Origin: a virus
Direction: 5' to 3' (one strand)
DNA: 25,840 bases
IMG/VR virus record: IMGVR_UViG_3300007165_000011
Coordinates: 1 to 25,840 of that record
Below the pieces are notes generated by a model. It was not told the origin of the DNA and did no database searches. It worked only from the letters and a program-made list of their open reading frames with translations. A program made the translations under genes and the position numbers. Shown piece after piece: positions 2,082-25,731 of this stretch. Each line of letters starts with the position of its first letter. Within the stretch, counting starts at the first letter, position 1.

Positions 2082-3662
2082 ATGAATGCCGATATCTTTA
2101 ATTTTGAATTGGGTGTTTCTAACTCAGCGGAAAAGACCCAAAAAATAATCAACAAGGTCAAAAAGCCCAAAGAGGCTAAAGTCACTGTTGAAAAGAAAAT
2201 CAAGTCTAAGAAAATATCGGTAGAAGAAAAGATTTCTTTAATCACTGAGAAAGTTAATAAAACCTTAGAAAAACAAAAAGATGATGTTTTAGTTATTAGA
2301 ACGAAACAAGAGTTCTCTAATTATATAACTCAAGCTATTCATAACGACATCATCGCTATAGACACTGAAACAAATAACTCCCTAGACCCACTAACTGCAA
2401 AGTTAATGGGTCTCTGTGTCTATACTCCTAATAATAAAAAAGTATACATTCCTGTAAACCATGTTGATTATAAAACCGGAGAAAAGCTCCCAAATCAACT
2501 TACAGAACAAGATATAAAAGAAGAACTGTCTCGTGTTGTAGATGCTCAAATTTTGACCATCATGCACAACTCAAAGTTTGATTTCCAAGTTATCAAAACA
2601 ACTTGTGGTATCGAACTTCCCTGCTATTGGGATACAATGATTGCTGCCAAGCTTATTGATGAAAATGAATTGGCAGGATTAAAACAACAGTATATTTTAC
2701 ATATTGATTCAGAACAAGAAAAATACTCTATTGAAGACTTATTTGAAAAAGAAGAATATGCTATCTTTCCACCTGAAGTTTTTGCATTATATGCTGCTAC
2801 AGACCCTTACATGACTTATAAACTATATGAATATCAAAAACCAATCATGGAAAGTGAAGAGTATAAAAAAGTTAATAACCTTTTCCGTGAAGTAGAAATG
2901 CCTGTTATTCGTGTAGTTGCAGAAATGGAACTCGCTGGTATTGAACTTGACAAAGAATACGCAAAGAGACTTAGTGTCAAATATCATGCTAAGTTAGATG
3001 AATTAGATAAAAGAATTGCCGTTGAATTAGACAAGTATAAATCTAGAATAGATGCCTGGAGAACAACTCCTGATGCTAACACTAAACCTAAAAAGAAGTC
3101 AGGTGAAGATGGTGGTAAATCCAAATCAGAACAATTACCTGATGTTATTAACTTAGGAAGTCCGACTCAACTTGCTATCCTGTTATATGATGTAATTGGT
3201 GTTGAGCAAGTAAGTAAAGAAAGTCCACGTGGTACTGGGGAAGATATTCTTGAGGCTATCAATATACCTCTATCTAAACTTATCTTAGAAAGACGTGGTT
3301 TAGTTAAACTATTAGATGCTTTTATCGATTCCTTACCTCAAAAGGTTAATCCTATTGATGGAAGAGTTCACGGTCATTTTAATCAATATGGTGCAGCCAC
3401 TGGACGATTCAGTTCTAGTGACCCTAACCTACAACAGCTTCCAGCATCAAATAAAGAAATACGTATGATGTTTAAAGCCAAGACAGACTACAAGGACGTA
3501 GAAATATCAAAGGATGAGTTTTATGAAGTAAGTAATATCTCAGAGGTTCAAACAAGTAATGGGTGGAAACGTGTCAAAGATGTTGTTCCAGGTGATATTA
3601 TTGAAGGAGATGTAGTAAAAAGAGTGAAAACTGAAGAAAAGTACACATATTTATATATTTAA
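2082..3662 (+). CDS. polA: DNA polymerase I (family A), N-terminal part: 3'-5' exonuclease and start of polymerase domain
   Basis: The first part of a split replicative polymerase, 526 residues. After a Lys-rich N-terminus come the proofreading motifs: Exo I D94-x-E96 (IAIDTETN), Exo II N163-x3-F166-D167 (HNSKFDF), and Exo III Y237-x3-D241 (YAATDPY). The polymerase domain begins near MELAGIELD and includes TGRFSSSDPNLQQLP (about 440-454) and EIRMMFKAK, which normally lead into motif A. Instead, residues about 468-526 form a segment with a Hint-like look (SEVQTSNGWKRVKDVVPGD), and the frame ends in YTYLYI-TAA. All catalytic polymerase motifs (A, B, C) are missing here and lie in the downstream piece at 4509-5602, beyond a homing endonuclease gene. 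The ribosome binding site is weak (ATAGGT). It must associate with the second piece, or be spliced to it, to polymerise DNA. Confidence 0.88.
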   Translation: MNADIFNFELGVSNSAEKTQKIINKVKKPKEAKVTVEKKIKSKKISVEEKISLITEKVNKTLEKQKDDVLVIRTKQEFSNYITQAIHNDIIAIDTETNNSLDPLTAKLMGLCVYTPNNKKVYIPVNHVDYKTGEKLPNQLTEQDIKEELSRVVDAQILTIMHNSKFDFQVIKTTCGIELPCYWDTMIAAKLIDENELAGLKQQYILHIDSEQEKYSIEDLFEKEEYAIFPPEVFALYAATDPYMTYKLYEYQKPIMESEEYKKVNNLFREVEMPVIRVVAEMELAGIELDKEYAKRLSVKYHAKLDELDKRIAVELDKYKSRIDAWRTTPDANTKPKKKSGEDGGKSKSEQLPDVINLGSPTQLAILLYDVIGVEQVSKESPRGTGEDILEAINIPLSKLILERRGLVKLLDAFIDSLPQKVNPIDGRVHGHFNQYGAATGRFSSSDPNLQQLPASNKEIRMMFKAKTDYKDVEISKDEFYEVSNISEVQTSNGWKRVKDVVPGDIIEGDVVKRVKTEEKYTYLYI

Positions 3663-3676
3663 CACCCACCTATATC

Positions 3677-3699
3677 TTACTGTGAAAAGTCACAGCTAA
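3677..3699 (+). other. Perfect hairpin at the polymerase/endonuclease junction
   Basis: CTGTGA (3680-3685), loop AAAG, TCACAG (3690-3695) form a 6-bp perfect stem, extendable by TTA/TAA with one bulged C. No T-run follows, so a Rho-independent terminator is unlikely. It lies between the stop of the polymerase N-part and the Shine-Dalgarno of the endonuclease gene. It could stabilise the upstream mRNA end, modulate endonuclease translation, or be a relic of an intron core. Confidence 0.5.
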
Positions 3700-3722
3700 A
3701 TTAGGTAAAGGAGAAATAATAT

Positions 3723-4445
3723 ATGATTGTGTATAAGATTACTAACAGGATGACGAATAAGTGCTATATTGGCATCACAGAGAAGAGTTTAGAGGATAGG
3801 TGGTATGGACACCTTACCAGACTAAAAAACGGTGACCAGAGGCATCTATATAGCTCAATGAGGAAGTATGGTATAGAAGCCTTCACCATTGAAATAATAG
3901 ACGAAACAGACAATTATGAAGAACTTCTTAAAAAAGAGAAATATTATGTATCTTTATATGATTCCTTCAATAATGGGTATAATATGACAAATGGCGGTGA
4001 TGATAACCCTATGAACGTGGGATTGGTAAAGGATAACCATGATGCTAAAATGAGAAGTAAAGATGTAAGAAGCAAGATTTCATTATCAATGAAGGCATAT
4101 AGAGAGAAGAAACCCTTCTCTAAAGAGCACAGAGATAAAATTTCTGAGGCTATGAAGGGGAACAAGAACTTCGGCTCCGGTGATACTCGTTCAGTAGGTT
4201 GCTATTGTGTACTCAATACTGGAGAAAGGTTTGAGTTCCATTCCATAAAAGATGCAACAAAGTGGTGGTTTGAAGCCTTTCATCCGTTTGGTGATAACTA
4301 TGCTGAGTGTACGTTCCAAAGGAAAATTAAAAAATCTATTAAAGGAGAGCCTATTACATATGTATCCTCCCATAATAGCAATAAGAAACACCCCGATGGT
4401 AAAAAGGTTATTGTGGTAGATAATATTAAATGGTTCAAGCTATAA
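3723..4445 (+). CDS. GIY-YIG homing endonuclease with NUMOD-type DNA-binding modules
   Basis: A 240-residue mobile endonuclease that separates the two polymerase pieces. The GIY-YIG domain spans roughly residues 1-95: VYKITN, then CYIGITEKSLEDRWYGHL (YIG plus the catalytic Arg in DRW), then LLKKEKYYVSLYDSFNNGYN with the conserved Glu and NGYNMTNGG end. NUMOD3-like units follow (RSKISLSMKAYR; SKEHRDKISEAMKGNKN). A NUMOD1-like segment comes next (GCYCVLNTGERFEFHSIKDAT), a usual DNA-contacting tail for these enzymes. It has its own strong ribosome binding site (AAAGGAG, 9 nt before ATG). The family moves by cleaving alleles that lack the element. I infer that its target is in the polymerase gene. 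Whether it is free-standing or inside an intron is discussed in the findings. Confidence 0.9.
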   Translation: MIVYKITNRMTNKCYIGITEKSLEDRWYGHLTRLKNGDQRHLYSSMRKYGIEAFTIEIIDETDNYEELLKKEKYYVSLYDSFNNGYNMTNGGDDNPMNVGLVKDNHDAKMRSKDVRSKISLSMKAYREKKPFSKEHRDKISEAMKGNKNFGSGDTRSVGCYCVLNTGERFEFHSIKDATKWWFEAFHPFGDNYAECTFQRKIKKSIKGEPITYVSSHNSNKKHPDGKKVIVVDNIKWFKL

Positions 4446-4450
4446 AGAAA

Positions 4451-4460
4451 GTTGTATAAT
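4451..4460 (+). promoter_or_regulatory. Phage promoter box GTTGTATAAT, upstream of polymerase C-part
   Basis: An exact copy of the recurrent box, 6 nt after the endonuclease stop codon and 49 nt before ATG 4509. With the AAGGAGG ribosome binding site at 4494-4500 it implies that the polymerase C-terminal part is transcribed and translated on its own, which argues against a simple intron. Confidence 0.6.
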
Positions 4461-4508
4461 ATAGTATGAAGAATGTTTTATTAAAAACAGGAAAAGGAGG
4501 TGGTGTCA

Positions 4509-5602
4509 ATGAAAAAGTCAATTAAAACTAGAGTTCCTTATACTTTAGTTGGAAGTGACTTTTCGTGAGTTCGCAACAAGAACCACGAATGCTTTCAAAC
4601 TACTCCGGTGACGAAGATATGATTCAAGCTTATAAAGATGGCAAAGACTTATACGCTACCATCGCTAGTAGTGTTTATAAGAATGATTACTGGGATAACA
4701 TGGAGTTCCGTCAAGATGGAACACCTAATCCAGAAGGTAAAAAGAGACGTAATGCCTGTAAAACACTTTTGTTAGGTATTATGTATGGTCAAGGTGTTAC
4801 AGCTGTTGCTGAAAGCATTGGAAGCTCTATTCAAGAAGCCCAGTCTATTATTGATGGTTTCTATAACTCTTTCCCTAAAGTAAAGGGTTGGATGGATGAA
4901 ACCACAGCCTTTGCCAAGAAAAATGGCTATGTAGAAGACTTGTGGGGCAGAAGACGTAGATTGCCGGATATATCCTTACCTAGATTTGAAATATCCTATA
5001 ATAATGCTTCAAAAGACCAATCCCCCTTTAATCCACTTCTTGGCACTGCTGATAGAAAACAAGATGATAAAGTCATTGCTCTCTTCTATAAAAAATTAGA
5101 AAATGCCAAATTTAAAAAAGAAGTTGATGCTGTAACTCAAGATGCAGCAAAATACGGTATTAAGATAAAGAATAATGGTGGTTTTATTGCTCAGGCAGAA
5201 CGTCAGTGTGTTAATGCTAGAATCCAAGGTGGTTCGGCTACCATGACTAAGATTGCCATGAATAAACTCTTTAGAGATGAAGAGTTAAATAAGTTAGGGT
5301 TTAAATTACTTCTAACGGTGCATGATGAGTTAATTGGTGAATGCCCTAAAGAAAATGCAGATAAAGTAGCTAAAAGACTTACTTCTGTTATGAAGACCTG
5401 TATTGATGATGTTTCTTCTGTACCATTCAAATGTGATGCTGATGTTAGTGAGCACTGGTACTATAACGATTATGTTAGCACATTAAAACAGGAGTATAAA
5501 AAGATACTTCCAAGCTTAAGCAAAGAGGATGCAATTCAACACATTATTTTAGAGCATACCGAAATGTCTCCAGAAGAAATTAGAAGAATACTCACTGAAT
5601 AA
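4509..5602 (+). CDS. polA: DNA polymerase I (family A), C-terminal part, reading frame interrupted by 8 nt inside motif A
   Basis: This part carries the polymerase active site. A good Shine-Dalgarno (AAGGAGG, 4494-4500) precedes ATG 4509, which reads into YTLVGSDFS, the first half of motif A with its catalytic Asp (codon 4557-4559). The next codon is TGA (4566-4568). The rest of the gene is open from 4565 to 5602 in another frame, starting ...SQQEPRML. Removing 8 nt (4566-4573) gives GSDFSQQEPRML, the expected motif A. Downstream are motif B (RRNACKTLLLGIMYG, with R-x3-K-x7-YG) and motif C (LLTVHDEL). A GTG at 4565 could start the long frame, but it lacks a ribosome binding site and would lose the catalytic Asp. 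Either recoding joins the frames, or the gene is broken, or the 8 nt is an assembly error. Confidence 0.85.
4562..4589 (+). promoter_or_regulatory. Hairpin spanning the motif A gap (candidate recoding or quasipalindrome element)
   Basis: TTCGTG (4562-4567) pairs with CACGAA (4584-4589), and GTTC (4569-4572) pairs with GAAC (4580-4583). This gives a 10-bp stem with a single bulged A4568 and a 7-nt loop (GCAACAA). The stem contains the TCG codon 4563-4565 and the TGA stop; the second TCG (4571-4573) runs from the stem top into the loop. It coincides with the frame break in the polymerase gene. Confidence 0.6.
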
Positions 5603-11586: not shown

Positions 11587-11663
11587 CGCCAGTTGGAGAA
11601 GTGGCTTAACTCACTACCCTTTCACGGTAGCATTCATGGGTTCGAATCCCATACTGGTGACCA
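11587..11663 (+). tRNA. tRNA-Glu (anticodon UUC)
   Basis: A 77-nt cloverleaf with encoded CCA. The acceptor CGCCAGT (11587-11593) pairs with ACTGGTG with one G-U. The D stem is GAG/CTC. The anticodon stem CTACC/GGTAG encloses loop CTTTCAC, with anticodon TTC at 11621-11623. The T arm is ATGGG-TTCGAAT-CCCAT, the discriminator is A, and CCA is at 11661-11663. It starts one base after the tmRNA, so both are likely cut from one precursor. It reads GAA, a very frequent codon in these genes. Confidence 0.93.
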
Positions 11664-17145: not shown

Positions 17146-17155
17146 GTTGTATAAT
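17146..17155 (+). promoter_or_regulatory. Phage promoter box GTTGTATAAT, upstream of sbcD-like gene
   Basis: An exact copy of the box after an A-run, with TATAAT at 17150-17155 and ATG 17171 16 nt on. AAGAGG acts as the ribosome binding site. An in-frame ATG at 17147 overlaps the box and is not a plausible start. Confidence 0.6.
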
Positions 17156-17170
17156 AATAAGAGGACATTA

Positions 17171-18238
17171 ATGAGTAAGATTTTGTTTTATACAGACCCA
17201 CACTGGTCTCAATACAGCTCGATTGTAAGGAAAAGGGGTATAAAGTACTCCCAACGATTAGAAAACCTTATAGCGAGCTTAAATTGGGCTGAAAACCTAT
17301 CAAAGCAATTAGGCTGTGATATGGTTATTTGTTTGGGAGACTTCTTTGACTCAGCTGTGCTGAATAGCGAAGAGATTACTGCATTACAGGATATAACCTG
17401 GAATATGGCTGTCCCTCACTACTTCTTGGTTGGAAACCATGAATCTAGCGTTTCTTCCTTAGAGTACAGCTCAACAAAAGCTCTTGAAAGGAAGGGCTTT
17501 TCGGTCATTGATAAACCACAAAGACTTGTGTTAGATGAGAAGTCAAGTCTTTACTTTTTGCCATATACACTAGAAGAAAACAGAAAGACAGTAAAAGAAT
17601 ATGTTACAGAGATGTCTATTGGCATACCTACTGTCCATAACATTGTCTTGAGTCATAACGATATCATAGGTATTCGATATGGTATGTTTGAATCCAAAGA
17701 AGGTTTTAACTTAAAGGACATTGAGGAAAACAGTACTCTTTACTTAAACGGCCATTTACATAATAGCACCTTCCTTAACAGTAAAGACACTATTTTAAAT
17801 TTAGGTAACCTTACAGGTCAGAACTTTAGTGAGGATGCCTATCGTTATAGACACTATGCTGCTACCTTAGATACAGACACATTGGCATTAGACTTTCACG
17901 AAAACCCACATGCCTTTAACTTTTACCATGTTGATATTAAAGAAAATGCTGATTTCAAGAAACTAAGCCTTTTAAAGACTAATGCTGTTGTTACCTTTAG
18001 ATGCAAAGAAGAACTTATGGACCAACTTCGTTCTGTGATTAAGATTGTCCCTAACATTGTAGAGCATAAGATTGTTGCATATCGAGAAGAAGTAGTTGCA
18101 AATAAAGCATACATGGACGAGATATCTTTAAGCAACATGGACTATTTACAGAAGTTTTCTGAGTTTATTATTCAAACTATAGGTGATTCTGAAGTCATTA
18201 AAGAAGAACTTACCCATATTAGTGGGGGTAACAAGTAA
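17171..18238 (+). CDS. sbcD: SbcD/gp47-like exonuclease subunit (Mre11 family)
   Basis: Nuclease of the DNA end-processing complex, 355 residues from ATG 17171. Metallophosphoesterase motifs are complete: D9-P-H11 (YTDPHW), G-D57-FFD, G-N89-H90-E, H162 in LSHND, and G194-H195-L-H197. These are the two-metal ligands of Mre11 proteins. A C-terminal part (about 250-355) would carry the DNA-binding cap and the contact to SbcC. Its last base overlaps the start of the sbcC-like gene (TAATG), so the two subunits are made in coupled fashion. In T4 the matching gp47/gp46 pair acts in recombination-dependent replication and host DNA breakdown. Confidence 0.9.
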   Translation: MSKILFYTDPHWSQYSSIVRKRGIKYSQRLENLIASLNWAENLSKQLGCDMVICLGDFFDSAVLNSEEITALQDITWNMAVPHYFLVGNHESSVSSLEYSSTKALERKGFSVIDKPQRLVLDEKSSLYFLPYTLEENRKTVKEYVTEMSIGIPTVHNIVLSHNDIIGIRYGMFESKEGFNLKDIEENSTLYLNGHLHNSTFLNSKDTILNLGNLTGQNFSEDAYRYRHYAATLDTDTLALDFHENPHAFNFYHVDIKENADFKKLSLLKTNAVVTFRCKEELMDQLRSVIKIVPNIVEHKIVAYREEVVANKAYMDEISLSNMDYLQKFSEFIIQTIGDSEVIKEELTHISGGNK

Positions 18239-20121
18239 TGAAGATTAAGTTTGAAAAGGTTGTTTTACATAACTTCCTTTCTTTTGGGGATGCAGAACTT
18301 ACCTTGTCTGACCGTGGTTACTCTGTGGTCAAGGGTGTTAATAACAACCCTAAAGACTCTGCCATCTCTAATGGGTCAGGTAAATCTAGTATTTGGTCTG
18401 CGATTTCCTATGCTTTAACAGGAGAAACCATTCAAGGGCTAAAGTCTAACATTGTAAACATAAATGGCCAGGATGGATGTTTTGTTAAGCTTTTCTTCAA
18501 TGTTGATGGGAATAACTATGAAATTACACGATTTAAGGAATATTCAGATGTAGGCACAGACCTTAAGATTGTCATCAATGGTAAGGACATGAGTGGTAAA
18601 GGGATTAAGGAATCTCAACAACTCCTCCTACAATACCTTCCAGACCTCAATACAGAGCTTATAGGAAGCGTAATCATCCTCGGACAGGGTTTACCTCATA
18701 AATTTTCAAATCACAGCCCTAGTGGACGAAAAGAGGTATTAGAGAAGCTGTCTAAGTCAGACTTCATGATTCAGGACATCAAAGACAGGATAGAACGTAG
18801 GACTAACCACCTTTCTACTACCAAGAGAACTCTTGAGGATACTTTACTAGGATTAACCTCTCAACTATCTGTTTATACTCAACAGTATGTTAAACTAACC
18901 GAAGAACTATCTAAAACTAAGGTTGTTATTGATTATGACTCAATAATTACTAAAAAACAACTGGAATTAGACCAAATATCGATTAGACATCAAAACTATC
19001 AAGGAAGACTTGATTCCTTCAACCAACGCTTGAGTTATCTAACTGAAAGCATATCCCAAGAAACACTTAAGAAGTCAGAGTACCTTGCAAACAAGTCAAA
19101 AGAGGCTCAGAAGCATCTTGAGCCCTTAAAAGAAGAATTAACTACCCTTAACGTCTTAATTAAGACTTTAGAGGGGGAAATCACTAAATTAAAGGCAATT
19201 AAGGATACTTGTCCAACCTGTGGTCAAAAGATACCTGGTGCACTTAAACCAGATACCTCAGAGAAGGATAAACTGTATTTAGACTATCATGCTAAGAGAG
19301 ATGGCCTTATTGCTCAAATTAGTGCTTATAACTCTACAGTGGAAAAAGAGACAGCAGAATATAACAAGCAGTATGAATTAGATACCGCAAGAACCAGAGA
19401 AGAGTTGACAAAGGTTAAATCTGAGATTACTAACTTACAGTATGGGCCAGTTGACAGCATTAACATCCTTGCAGATAAAAAGATAAAACTAAGTAATGAA
19501 ATCACATCCTTACAGAATGAAAAGAAGAACTTCTTTGATAACAAACAAAAGTTAGAAGATAAGATTAAAGAGGCTCAAACAACAATGGAGTCCCTTAAGA
19601 ATAAGATTGATTCTGACACCAAGAACAAAGAAGAGTTGCAAAAGCACATAGATGTAATTACTAAGATGTCTACCTTAGTTAAAAGGGACTTTAGAGGATT
19701 CTTATTATCAAGTGTTATATCCTTTATTGACAGGAAAGCAAAAGAGTACTCTCAAGAAGTGTTTGGAACATCTGAGCTAGACTTCAAACTTGATGGCAAT
19801 AACATTGATATAAGTTATTGTGGCAAGTCGTTTGAGAACTTATCGGGAGGAGAAAAGCAAAGAGTAGACCTTATTATTCAGTTTGCCGTGAGAGACATGA
19901 TGAGTCAATACCTATCCTTCACTAGCAACATTATCGTTCTAGATGAAATCTTTGATAACTTAGACATAAAGGGGACAACCAATGTATTGAATCTAATATC
20001 TAAGAAGTTAAACGATGTAGAAAGCATATTTATAATCTCACATAATGAATCGCTCAAGATTCCTTATGATGATATAATTACCGTCATAAAAGACGAAAGG
20101 GGATTTAGTAAAATAAAATGA
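18238..20121 (+). CDS. sbcC: SbcC/gp46-like ATPase subunit (Rad50 family)
   Basis: The ATPase partner of the nuclease, 627 residues, shorter than bacterial SbcC (about 1000) and similar to phage gp46. N-terminal Walker A is SNGSGKSS (44-51). Long coiled coils run to about 500, split by a zinc hook C325-P-T-C328 that joins two molecules. The ABC signature LSGGEKQR is near 535, and Walker B with catalytic Glu (NIIVLDEIFDN) is near 563-574. A His after FIISHNE closes the site (H-loop). The gene overlaps its neighbours on both sides (TAATG at the start, ATGA at the end). Confidence 0.93.
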   Translation: MKIKFEKVVLHNFLSFGDAELTLSDRGYSVVKGVNNNPKDSAISNGSGKSSIWSAISYALTGETIQGLKSNIVNINGQDGCFVKLFFNVDGNNYEITRFKEYSDVGTDLKIVINGKDMSGKGIKESQQLLLQYLPDLNTELIGSVIILGQGLPHKFSNHSPSGRKEVLEKLSKSDFMIQDIKDRIERRTNHLSTTKRTLEDTLLGLTSQLSVYTQQYVKLTEELSKTKVVIDYDSIITKKQLELDQISIRHQNYQGRLDSFNQRLSYLTESISQETLKKSEYLANKSKEAQKHLEPLKEELTTLNVLIKTLEGEITKLKAIKDTCPTCGQKIPGALKPDTSEKDKLYLDYHAKRDGLIAQISAYNSTVEKETAEYNKQYELDTARTREELTKVKSEITNLQYGPVDSINILADKKIKLSNEITSLQNEKKNFFDNKQKLEDKIKEAQTTMESLKNKIDSDTKNKEELQKHIDVITKMSTLVKRDFRGFLLSSVISFIDRKAKEYSQEVFGTSELDFKLDGNNIDISYCGKSFENLSGGEKQRVDLIIQFAVRDMMSQYLSFTSNIIVLDEIFDNLDIKGTTNVLNLISKKLNDVESIFIISHNESLKIPYDDIITVIKDERGFSKIK

Positions 20122-22480: not shown

Positions 22481-23713
22481 ATGACTAAGCAAGAGTTTAT
22501 TGAGTACGTAGCCTCGTTTAACAAGAAGCCTGGGACATATACCCCAGATGAGCTTTATCAAATAGGTGTTGCTCACAAAAAGCTTATTGGTAGAGATAAA
22601 AACTGGGATGAGCTTGCAGCCGTTGTAGGGACAGAATATACCGGAGAACAATATAGAAAGTTTGTTGTCCGAAGACAGGATAGGGATGGAACTCTAATGA
22701 AAAATGTTAACGTGTTAAGTGATAAGACTATTACTGATATTACTGAAGAAGATGTTGTCAATAAGGCAGAAGAATTATTTAAATTACATCAACGTGTTCG
22801 TGATGAAAGAACTGCTTTAAATAGAAAGCTAAGAGATGAATCTCGTATTGATGCACTTAAAGATGCTATCAAAGAAACAGTGAGTAAGTTAAAAGAACTT
22901 CCACAGGTTACTTATGAAGCACAAAAATCAAATACAAAGAAAGAAGCTATTCTATTGTTCAGCGACTTACACATCGGTGTTGAGGTTAATGATTGGTATA
23001 ACGTATTTAACTCCAGTATTGCTGAAGTACGTGTTATGAAACTTGTAGAGGATACTATTCAATACTGCAAGGATAACAATGTTAAAAAACTAAACTTTAT
23101 TAACTTGGGTGACTTAGTTCATGGCTTAATCCATGTTTCGGCACGTGTGGAAGAACAATTTGGTGTTATTGACCAAGTGATGGTTGCCAGTGAGATTATC
23201 AGTAAGGCTTTAAACAAACTGCAAGAAGCTGCACCAGAAGTCCTTTATCGTAGTTGCACAGACAATCACTCAAGAACTATTGCTAACAAATCTGAAGCGA
23301 TTGAAAAAGATAACTTCAACAGATTAGTTGATTGGTTCATTCAAGAAAGACTTAAAAATACTAAAATTAAGTTTATTAATGACAATCTTAACGAAGATTT
23401 AGGTAGATTTACCTTAGAAAACGGTAAAGTAGTTATGTTTTCTCATGGTCACCTTGATACTGTTAACCAAGTTTATCAAAGCTGGGTTGGTGGAACAAGC
23501 GAACACGTAGACTTAATCTTATTAGGTCACTACCACAATGAAAAACTCAAGTCTTTCCAAAAAACACGGGTTTATATTAACGGTTCTATTGTGGGACCAG
23601 ACCAATATGCCAACTCTAAACGGCTATATAGCATCCCTTCTCAGACTTTGTTAGTGTTTGATAATGATAATATCGTTAACTATAGCATTAACTTGGATAT
23701 CAGAAAGGCCTAA
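22481..23713 (+). CDS. Calcineurin-like metallophosphoesterase
   Basis: The second phosphoesterase of the window, 410 residues. Metal-binding motifs from about residue 160 on: LFSDLHIG (DxH), NLGDLVHG (GDxxxG), CTDNHSR (NH in place of the usual GNH), SHGH and LGHYHN (GHxH). The first 140 residues form an extra domain with a small helix set (KNWDELAAVVGTEYTGEQYRKFVVRR), possibly DNA-binding. Unlike the Mre11-like protein at 17171 it has no SbcC partner next to it. Related phage proteins are of unknown substrate (DNA ends or nucleotides). The terminator behind it ends the transcription unit. Confidence 0.85.
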   Translation: MTKQEFIEYVASFNKKPGTYTPDELYQIGVAHKKLIGRDKNWDELAAVVGTEYTGEQYRKFVVRRQDRDGTLMKNVNVLSDKTITDITEEDVVNKAEELFKLHQRVRDERTALNRKLRDESRIDALKDAIKETVSKLKELPQVTYEAQKSNTKKEAILLFSDLHIGVEVNDWYNVFNSSIAEVRVMKLVEDTIQYCKDNNVKKLNFINLGDLVHGLIHVSARVEEQFGVIDQVMVASEIISKALNKLQEAAPEVLYRSCTDNHSRTIANKSEAIEKDNFNRLVDWFIQERLKNTKIKFINDNLNEDLGRFTLENGKVVMFSHGHLDTVNQVYQSWVGGTSEHVDLILLGHYHNEKLKSFQKTRVYINGSIVGPDQYANSKRLYSIPSQTLLVFDNDNIVNYSINLDIRKA

Positions 23714-23720
23714 CAAGAAC

Positions 23721-23748
23721 AAAGTCAACCAAACGGTTGACTTTTGTC
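23721..23748 (+). terminator. Rho-independent terminator
   Basis: AAAGTCAACC (23721-23730), loop AAAC, GGTTGACTTT (23735-23744) is a perfect 10-bp stem followed by TGTCT. The U-tract is short, but the stem is strong. It is the only clear hairpin terminator I find in the window, 7 nt after the phosphoesterase stop. Confidence 0.75.
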
Positions 23749-23766
23749 TCATAAACGTTGTATAAT
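23737..23766 (+). promoter_or_regulatory. Promoter TTGACT-N18-TATAAT overlapping the terminator
   Basis: The -35-like TTGACT (23737-23742) is in the 3' arm of the terminator stem. The spacer is 18 nt and TATAAT is at 23761-23766, within an exact GTTGTATAAT box (23757-23766). It would start the transcription unit that begins with ATG 23787. Terminator and promoter are fused back to back. Confidence 0.65.
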
Positions 23767-24418: not shown

Positions 24419-25117
24419 ATGGCAAATTATGTTTTAGCAATTACGAGAGACTTAGACAAATTGATGCAAAGAAGTGATGAGGTTGCTGTTGTTGGAATTG
24501 ACTTACAGATACGTCCTGATGTAGCAAAAATCATTAAAGACTTAAAAGATACTATCTTGGCCAATAAAAACCTTGTTGCCCTTGCTGCACCTCAAATCGG
24601 AAAGTTTGACAGAATCTTCTGTATTCGTTTTGCCAATGGCGATATTCGTGCCTTTATTAATCCGATGATTTCAAAAACAGATGGAATTCACTTGGTAAGA
24701 GAAATCAGCCCAAGTATTCCTGATAGAGCTTTTATTGTTCCAAGACACAATCGTATTATTGCCATGTATCAAACCCCATCAGGTAAGCCAGAAGAAAGCG
24801 TATTTGAAGGTGTTGTAGCAGAAATCTTCCAACACATGGTTCAAATCCTTGATGGTGTGTTAATCAGTGATATTGGTTTAGAAGTGTTTGAAGACTTTGA
24901 CAACGCTTCAGAAGAAGAAAAAGCACAAGTCTTAGATGCTTACCTAAAAGAATTAAAATCAAGAGAAGATTCGATGAATAAGGAAATTGAACAAAACGAA
25001 GACCTTAAGAAAACACGTGATGCTATTCGATTCCTTGAAGGTGTTGCAACTGGCAAGATTACTATGGAAAAGCAAGATGAACTTGTGAAGAAGGAAGAAC
25101 CAGAAACAAATGCATAA
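24419..25117 (+). CDS. Peptide deformylase-like protein lacking catalytic residues
   Basis: 232 residues with the peptide deformylase fold, which normally removes the formyl group from nascent proteins. All three motifs can be aligned, but they are altered. Motif 1 GxGLAAxQ is VALAAPQIG (Q59 kept). Motif 2 EGCLSVP is E95-ISPSIP, so the metal-binding Cys is Ser97. Motif 3 QHExDHLxG is QHMVQILDG, so only H139 remains; the catalytic Glu is Met140 and the second His is Ile143. Metal binding and deformylation are therefore unlikely. After about residue 150 there is an acidic, helical, charged tail not found in typical deformylases. The protein may have been reused for binding or in a structural role. 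Confidence 0.82.
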   Translation: MANYVLAITRDLDKLMQRSDEVAVVGIDLQIRPDVAKIIKDLKDTILANKNLVALAAPQIGKFDRIFCIRFANGDIRAFINPMISKTDGIHLVREISPSIPDRAFIVPRHNRIIAMYQTPSGKPEESVFEGVVAEIFQHMVQILDGVLISDIGLEVFEDFDNASEEEKAQVLDAYLKELKSREDSMNKEIEQNEDLKKTRDAIRFLEGVATGKITMEKQDELVKKEEPETNA

Positions 25118-25499
25118 GTTTGGCTACAACCAGGAAACCATATTCTCAAAAGAACTTGACATTGATGAATTAGGTCAAGTAGCATTAGAGGCTAAAGACA
25201 GTGAATCTATGTTCTATTATCTTATTATTAGAACATCACTAGGACAGTCATCTATTGTTGAATATGGGCCCATCGTTCCTGATATAGCTATTCTCCCTGA
25301 CTTTACTGAAATTAAGTTTCAAAGAATAGACTTCAATGAACTAAAGATAAAACAAATTATTAAGAAGTTCTTGATGCCTAGAAACAAGGGTAAGAACAAA
25401 ATAGAAGATGTTATTCAAATCAATATAAATGATGCTGTCGGTAGAGGGATTAATATATTAGAGTATATTAAGAACTTCGATAAAACATCAAATTACTAG
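25110..25499 (+). CDS. Hypothetical protein
   Basis: 129 residues, overlapping the deformylase-like gene by 8 nt. AAGGAAG precedes ATG 25110 at a distance. It seems to be beta-rich at first (ESMFYYLIIRTSLGQSSIVEYGPIVPDIAILPDFTEIKFQRIDF), then basic and helical (LKIKQIIKKFLMPRNKGKNKIEDVIQI). No recognised motif. It ends with TAG, unlike its neighbours' TAA. Confidence 0.75.
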   Translation: MHKFGYNQETIFSKELDIDELGQVALEAKDSESMFYYLIIRTSLGQSSIVEYGPIVPDIAILPDFTEIKFQRIDFNELKIKQIIKKFLMPRNKGKNKIEDVIQININDAVGRGINILEYIKNFDKTSNY

Positions 25500-25509
25500 G
25501 GAGGTAACC

Positions 25510-25731
25510 ATGGCAAAACAAACAATAAAAGACTTTTACGGAAAGATTATTGGTTATGTAGAAACCGATGATAAGACCGGTAATAAGACTGCTTTAGATT
25601 TTTATGGTAGAATCCTTGGTTATTATAAAAAAGCTACTAACGTGACTACAGACTTTTATGGTAAGGTTGTTGGTAGGGGTGACATTGCCGTTGGTTTAAT
25701 CTATGAAAAGGAAGAACAAGGTAAAAAATAA
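25510..25731 (+). CDS. Small DFYG-repeat protein
   Basis: 73 residues built of three copies of a nine-residue unit: DFYGKIIGY (8-16), DFYGRILGY (30-38) and DFYGKVVGR (48-56), spaced 22 and 18 apart, with charged turns between them. The end is GDIAVGLIYEKEE. A repeated beta-hairpin is likely. I recall the same architecture in small proteins from phages and gut bacteria, with no known function. A strong ribosome binding site (GGGAGG) precedes ATG 25510. The last base of its stop codon is the first base of the next ATG. Confidence 0.85.
   Translation: MAKQTIKDFYGKIIGYVETDDKTGNKTALDFYGRILGYYKKATNVTTDFYGKVVGRGDIAVGLIYEKEEQGKK

Follow-up and report, generated by a model that had tools for sequence, protein, structure and literature searches.

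Viral peptide deformylases (PDFs; types 1B and 4) strictly keep three catalytic motifs and have shorter C-termini, according to the Vp16 PDF study, which also cites the suggestion that all of them are active (PMC5591237). Type 3 PDFs of archaea, protists and some bacteria are described as weakly active or inactive in that study and in a 2025 survey of accessory bacterial PDFs (PMC12690207, PMC5591237); the survey mentions inactive type 3 PDFs and reports that only 61.9% of the PDFs analysed keep all motifs exactly (PMC12690207). Both describe deformylases as acting at the ribosome exit tunnel, where the C-terminal helix of the Escherichia coli PDF docks (PMC12690207, PMC5591237). Inactive PDFs are already known, and we found no report of a tailed phage PDF clade with repeated loss of the site in the open-licence PMC literature searched on phage and inactive deformylases.

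The 25,840 bases of DNA analysed here (the window) make up an entire virus record and encode a protein that has neither the strict motifs nor the short C-terminus given for types 1B and 4 in the Vp16 study (PMC5591237). A preliminary description, made from the sequence alone, had called this protein a phage pseudo-deformylase with an extra tail.

A deformylase fold with an altered catalytic site

The gene is intact, as first described, and its open plus-strand frame encodes 232 amino acids (Table 1). Pfam Pep_deformylase (PF01327) matches residues 15–151 (E = 1.8e-22; 80.1 bits against a gathering cut-off of 22.8), PHROG 2890 'peptide deformylase' matches with E = 4.5e-17, and phmmer aligns the protein with the Thermotoga maritima PDF 1lme (E = 5.7e-11). 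The AlphaFold model (22 sequences; mean pLDDT 85.6, pTM 0.77; residues 221–232 unreliable) has a PDF core, which VIA aligns on PDF structures with Z scores of 21–23 among the 50 entries listed. These include the Bacillus cereus PDF 1ws0 (Z 22.9, rmsd 1.6, 149 residues) and the viral S-SSM7 PDF 3uwa (Z 21.8, rmsd 1.6, 142 residues), the latter resembling the window protein in motif I as well as in core fold. The profile score and the fold place the protein in the PDF superfamily; the fold motifs are recognisable, as had been claimed, and the proposed comparison with a phage deformylase gave a good match. All six NCBIfam PDF enzyme models that matched scored under their curated cut-offs (for example, TIGR00079, 51.3 against 103.95; NF001159, 56.9 against 125). 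The closest predicted viral structure, A0A8S5MKA8 (Siphoviridae sp. ctrpg19; TM 0.82 on the query, 42% identity, 214 columns), gives an alignment that probably includes the tail; its name, 'Polypeptide deformylase', is an annotation, and it is probably a member of the tailed family already databased under the name of the enzyme.

In the alignment with 1lme, EISPS stands opposite EGCLS and QHMVQI opposite QHEFDH. The window protein retains the catalytic Gln59 of motif I (LAAPQIG) and His139, together with Glu95 and Arg109. Motif II, EGCxS in the enzyme with Cys as a metal ligand, has Ser97 instead, and motif III, HExDH with two His ligands and the catalytic Glu, reads HMVQI. The three substitutions first noted (Cys to Ser97, Glu to Met140 and His to Ile143) are therefore confirmed: two of the three metal ligands are gone, as is the catalytic Glu, and deformylation by the window protein is unlikely judging from these residues. 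Relative to canonical bacterial PDFs (E. coli Def, 1ws0), the protein lacks two ligands (the Cys and the second His) as well as the catalytic Glu, and its tail is unmatched. Type 3 PDFs share with it catalytic-motif substitutions inside a PDF fold (PMC12690207, PMC5591237). Their changes are assigned to motifs I and II (PMC12690207) or to one or more residues crucial to the motifs (PMC5591237); the window protein differs from that description in being hit in motifs II and III, in coming from a phage and in having a conserved tail.

Table 1. The pseudo-deformylase gene and its surroundings in the window
Feature	Position	Strand	Basis or remark
SbcD- and SbcC-like genes, start of conserved block	17147..20121	+	family match
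Exonuclease-like gene, upstream	22481..23713	+	phrog_284, E 2.7e-55
Promoter-like site TTGACT-18-TATAAT, gap before c1	23737..23766	+	consensus match alone, 11/12
Conserved neighbour c1, 118 aa	23787..24143	+	22/23 loci
Conserved neighbour c3, 90 aa	24145..24417	+	21/23 loci
PDF-fold pseudo-deformylase, 232 aa	24419..25117	+	core about residues 1–152, helical tail about 153–220
Motif I, LVALAAPQIG, Gln59 kept	24572..24601	+	alignment
Motif II, EISPS replaces EGCLS, Ser97 for Cys ligand	24701..24715	+	alignment
Motif III, QHMVQI replaces QHExDH; His139 kept, Met140, Ile143	24830..24847	+	alignment
C-terminal tail, residues 153–232, two helices; family-conserved Gly153, Tyr175, Phe205, Gly212	24875..25114	+	model, family alignment
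Conserved neighbour c5, 129 aa, weak WGR-like arrangement	25110..25499	+	20/23 loci
Neighbour c13, 73 aa, internal DFYGK-type repeats	25510..25731	+	13/23 loci

Catalytic residues, constraint and tail in the tailed clade

As a lone query against viral_contigs, the window protein returned no relatives; these were reached through records that match the RecA and exonuclease genes of the window, and then by alignment scans. Eleven of the 18 records searched (17 found by RecA, 1 by exonuclease) contain a tailed relative. The seven others include fragments and the 149,604-base record G001, which encodes an exonuclease relative and gave no PDF match. A scan of viral contigs yielded 36 tailed loci (L050–L085), two further scans added L237, L238, L240, L241, L259, L266 and L267, and 30 distinct tailed proteins, the window's counted, remained after removal of duplicates and of the truncated L069. 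Matches in genome_contigs have E = 1e-15 or weaker, and the best 80 listed include no clear tailed member; most stop at or before residue 176, and two extend to 188 and 202. The phages collection gave 71 matching records (60 listed), and the eight regions inspected all encode short-tailed or tail-less PDFs with Cys and HExxH, seven of them complete at all five catalytic residues. Loss of the motif I Gln also occurs outside the tailed clade: the tail-less phage PDF L006 (MT839320.1) has Met in its place (MAANMIG) and keeps Cys and HExxH, possibly another step toward inactivity.

We scored five sites (Gln59, Cys97, His139, Glu140 and His143; QCHEH when intact). All five catalytic residues are present in only 2 of the 30 tailed proteins (L053 and L056), compared with 31 of 31 ordinary viral PDFs, a sample (26 non-duplicates from 28 of the 43 loci L086–L128, the second PDF of G029, L247 and L284–L286) that leaves out L248–L250 and the eight phages-collection PDFs and whose scan patterns could favour some motifs. 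Of the 28 tailed proteins without at least one of these residues, 20 miss a metal ligand and 8 keep all three ligands and have lost Gln or Glu (ACHEH in three, GCHEH in one, QCHHH in three, QCHCH in one). The clade of the window protein (QSHMI) also holds QSQML, QSQQM, QCQML, QTNML and QQQML; a 12-member clade is mostly of Gln-Gln type (for example, QCQQI and QFQQV), with Asn or Ser at 140 in two members; and L067 (QDQEH) and L267 (QDRLV) have also lost ligands. As to whether relatives conserve the altered residues, a question raised at the outset, loss is widespread and the replacements differ between close relatives. With 28 of 30 members broken and a long tail, the clade reverses the description of the viral PDFs of Vp16 and S-SSM7 as strict in motif and short at the C-terminus, as given in that study (PMC5591237).

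Trees were built with the five catalytic columns excluded, the larger one with 15 of the 31 ordinary PDFs. The tailed proteins form one clade, with support of 100/99 in the larger tree and 99/99 in the first, smaller tree; the window protein falls in this monophyletic group and carries the other defining features, a tail with Phe205 and Gly212, and Lys43. The intact L053 and L056 are nested in an 11-member clade (93/81) in the larger tree, together with Gln-to-Ala, Gln-to-Gly, Glu-to-His and Glu-to-Cys changes and one heavily broken member; L053 is basal in the first tree, which had fewer rows and columns. Because the replacements vary and intact members are interspersed with broken ones, loss of the site has recurred, the variety of the replacement residues favouring several distinct events. 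A hand count on the larger tree gives eight losses if regain is barred, several of the branches concerned being weakly supported; plain parsimony with regain allowed gives three intact/broken changes on the larger tree, many of whose deep branches are weak, and two on the first.

The core nevertheless seems to be under purifying selection, at a rough estimate: dN/dS is 0.02–0.18 in the 11 of 16 pairs for which it could be computed, with dS at least 1.07 and mostly near saturation. For the tail, with the same near-saturated dS, it is 0.07–0.36 in 8 of 16 computable pairs. We also compared identity in a 24-residue active-site shell with that in the remaining core, using 2,000 random core sets, in clades that differ in depth. 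Ordinary PDFs have 0.76 in the shell and 0.27 elsewhere (random sets as high, 0/2,000), and the 11-member, mostly His-keeping clade has 0.62 and 0.46 (17/2,000). The corresponding values are 0.51 and 0.46 (458/2,000) in the window's six-member clade and 0.73 and 0.70 (600/2,000) in the Gln-Gln clade. The fairest comparison is that between the 6- and 11-member clades, whose core identity is equal (0.46). The two most degraded clades, the window's and the Gln-Gln clade, no longer show extra conservation at the pocket; in our reading, constraint left the pocket and remained on the fold.

These results bear on two alternatives. The protein could still be an enzyme with an altered-metal or metal-free site, performing deformylation or another hydrolysis; the window protein keeps the fold, Gln59, Glu95, His139 and Arg109, and members with HHxDH retain three ligands. 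However, QSHMI, QSQML and QSQQM occur inside one three-member clade and no replacement set is family-wide; as site residues vary among close relatives and the degraded clades show no special conservation of the pocket, we reject this reading as improbable. Simple decay, with drift after disuse, could account for the many different site substitutions, but we find it scarcely credible given that the frames of the family members read are open (with no in-frame stops but TAG codons in the apparently TAG-recoded G016 and one ahead of the likely start of L071), that the rough core dN/dS is low and that the tail is conserved.

The tail had been described as new, acidic and helical. Its helices (residues 165–192 and 194–211 in the AlphaFold model) and, in the window protein, its acidity (23 D/E against 13 K/R in residues 153–232) stand; its novelty does not, as the tail is common to the whole tailed family, both catalytically intact members included. 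An origin of the tail together with site loss, as an addition that accompanied inactivation, is accordingly not supported by the sequences. Across the 30 tailed proteins, intact and broken, Phe205 is present in all and Gly153, Tyr175 and Gly212 in 29 each, and Lys43 is found in every tailed-family row that has a residue there. Lys43, Cys68, Phe71, Glu125, Gly153, Phe205 and Gly212 are among the residues conserved in the tailed family and rare in ordinary PDFs.

The main alternative to a phage-encoded partner is the host ribosome or its nascent chains. A protein of this kind would keep PDF docking near the ribosome exit tunnel without catalysis, hide or compete for new N-termini and aid the takeover of host translation. 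Deformylases act at the tunnel and the C-terminal helix of the E. coli enzyme docks there, as two studies describe (PMC12690207, PMC5591237), and the tail of the window protein likewise comes after the core. There are translation genes in the window (tmRNA and tRNA-Glu), and tails of the Gln-Gln clade are about neutral (for example, 18 D/E and 19 K/R in L070). On the other hand, the window's clade has an acidic tail, which is not matched to the E. coli helix, PDB alignments of the model stopping at or before residue 163 among the VIA entries listed; the extra pocket conservation is gone in the degraded clades; and the gene lies within a block of DNA-metabolism genes. Binding of ribosomes or nascent chains, one of the roles first suggested, is thus retained as a rival that we regard as unlikely.

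Conserved neighbours and a possible docking role

In 23 compared loci, some of them interrupted by contig ends, the PDF-like gene belongs to a conserved block with genes for SbcD (19 loci), SbcC (20) and an exonuclease-like protein (13), the neighbours c1, c3 and c5, a c2 gene (21) and unknown genes. In the window, c5 overlaps the last 8 bp of the PDF-like gene. The order depends on the clade: c1, c3, PDF-like and then c5, where c5 was found, in the window's clade; c3, c5, c1 and PDF-like in the Gln-Gln loci examined (c3 was not found in L084); and c5 at 1.7–4.6 kb downstream in other tailed members. c1 and c3 stay near the PDF-like gene despite these changes. A special tie to c1, c3 and c5 is presumptive, as the whole block is conserved, SbcC and other genes of it being about as constant, and the link is not specific.

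For c1, c3 and c5 we found no informative family or structure match. Against the PDB, with E up to 1 allowed, profiles of c1, c3, c5, c7, c2 and c8 gave nothing trustworthy; the lowest E values were for c5 with leucine-rich glioma-inactivated protein 1 (0.0038) and for c7 with an L protein (0.012). The c5 model had no Foldseek match at 0.001 and a best VIA Z of 6.5. It has a sheet-plus-helix arrangement, and among its nearest structures are the WGR domains with which PARPs bind DNA (Z about 5, below the trusted level and not significant). PADLOC returned a single negligible match (E = 0.008).

The gene had also been called well expressed by its signals, a claim that remains weakly supported. 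A promoter-like site with 11 of 12 consensus positions lies in the 73-bp gap before c1, but sites of this kind number 23 in the scan and 18.1 ± 4.3 in shuffled sequence. An inverted repeat at 23721–23744 overlaps the −35 box of this site, upstream of c1, c3, PDF and c5, and the two together could form a regulated promoter.

A virion or assembly function was also proposed initially. Nothing found here points that way, and the family matches among the upstream neighbours are to SbcC, SbcD and exonuclease, which speaks weakly against a role that we judge very unlikely. Conversion to a non-catalytic role is likely, as the preliminary description had it: ligands and Glu are lost, the fold still looks constrained and loss is recurrent in the clade.

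We therefore consider it probable that the window gene is a pseudo-deformylase that serves as a non-catalytic docking module for a phage partner within a nucleic-acid block (SbcCD and exonuclease). As its residues suggest, the protein would have no deformylase activity and would work by binding. The ancestor of the tailed clade would have combined a working site, probable because intact members remain, with the two-helix tail. The site would then have been lost more than once by different substitutions, with fold and tail staying under constraint. Because the fold is constrained and the tail is common to intact and broken members, binding may be the older or more important task, and catalysis may have become dispensable. 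Core and tail would together dock a protein partner, most likely phage-made and perhaps from c1, c3 or c5, and act in the SbcCD/exonuclease block. We rank a phage-encoded partner first and a host-ribosome-related partner second.

One record (G029; 167,800 bases) of the 21 searched with PF01327, which may be fragments, encodes two PDFs: a tailed pseudo-PDF and, about 76 kb apart, a canonical one (L209 3981–4397) of 138 amino acids, tail-less and with all five catalytic residues. The 18 records obtained through RecA and exonuclease, two of them shared with the 21 and likewise possibly fragments, contain no second PDF. The canonical G029 protein ends in HLNGILI, reminiscent of the C-terminal Ile of the Vp16 PDF. 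We tentatively suggest, as a possibility somewhat short of even, that a translation enzyme was repeatedly converted to a subunit without catalysis in a phage complex for nucleic-acid work or host takeover, that the tail was the original docking element that made the site dispensable and that, in at least one phage, the chemistry then falls to a second, minimal PDF. The clade offers a natural series from intact to fully broken, in which what a phage gains from the deformylase fold besides deformylation could be tested.

Other features of the window and related records

A tmRNA match (RF00023; 11203–11585, plus strand; 91.1 bits against a cut-off of 47) is adjoined by a tRNA-Glu (11587–11663), and ARAGORN called the tRNA only. 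RF00023 scored above cut-off in 4 of the 36 related records searched (G002, G003, G004 and G009). From the putative resume codon onward, the tmRNA gives a 24-residue reading that ends in ALSY, where tmRNA tags usually end in an ALAA-like sequence; the reading is identical in L213 and L214 and has two changes in L212, and L211 was left out as it was not matched by the search expression.

Five TAG codons lie in frame in the relative in G016 (L033, G016:C1 69663–73250), an indication that this phage decodes TAG as an amino acid; in the part of the G016 record searched, ARAGORN called no tRNA.

Positions 2082–5602 (plus strand) hold what we take to be a DNA polymerase-like gene split into two ORFs (2082–3662 and 4565–5602), with the break seemingly near polymerase motif A. 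No group I intron was found in the window at Rfam gathering scores. Between the halves lies a 240-amino-acid ORF (3723–4445), presumably resembling a GIY-YIG homing endonuclease, which clusters with ORFs in L054 and L056.
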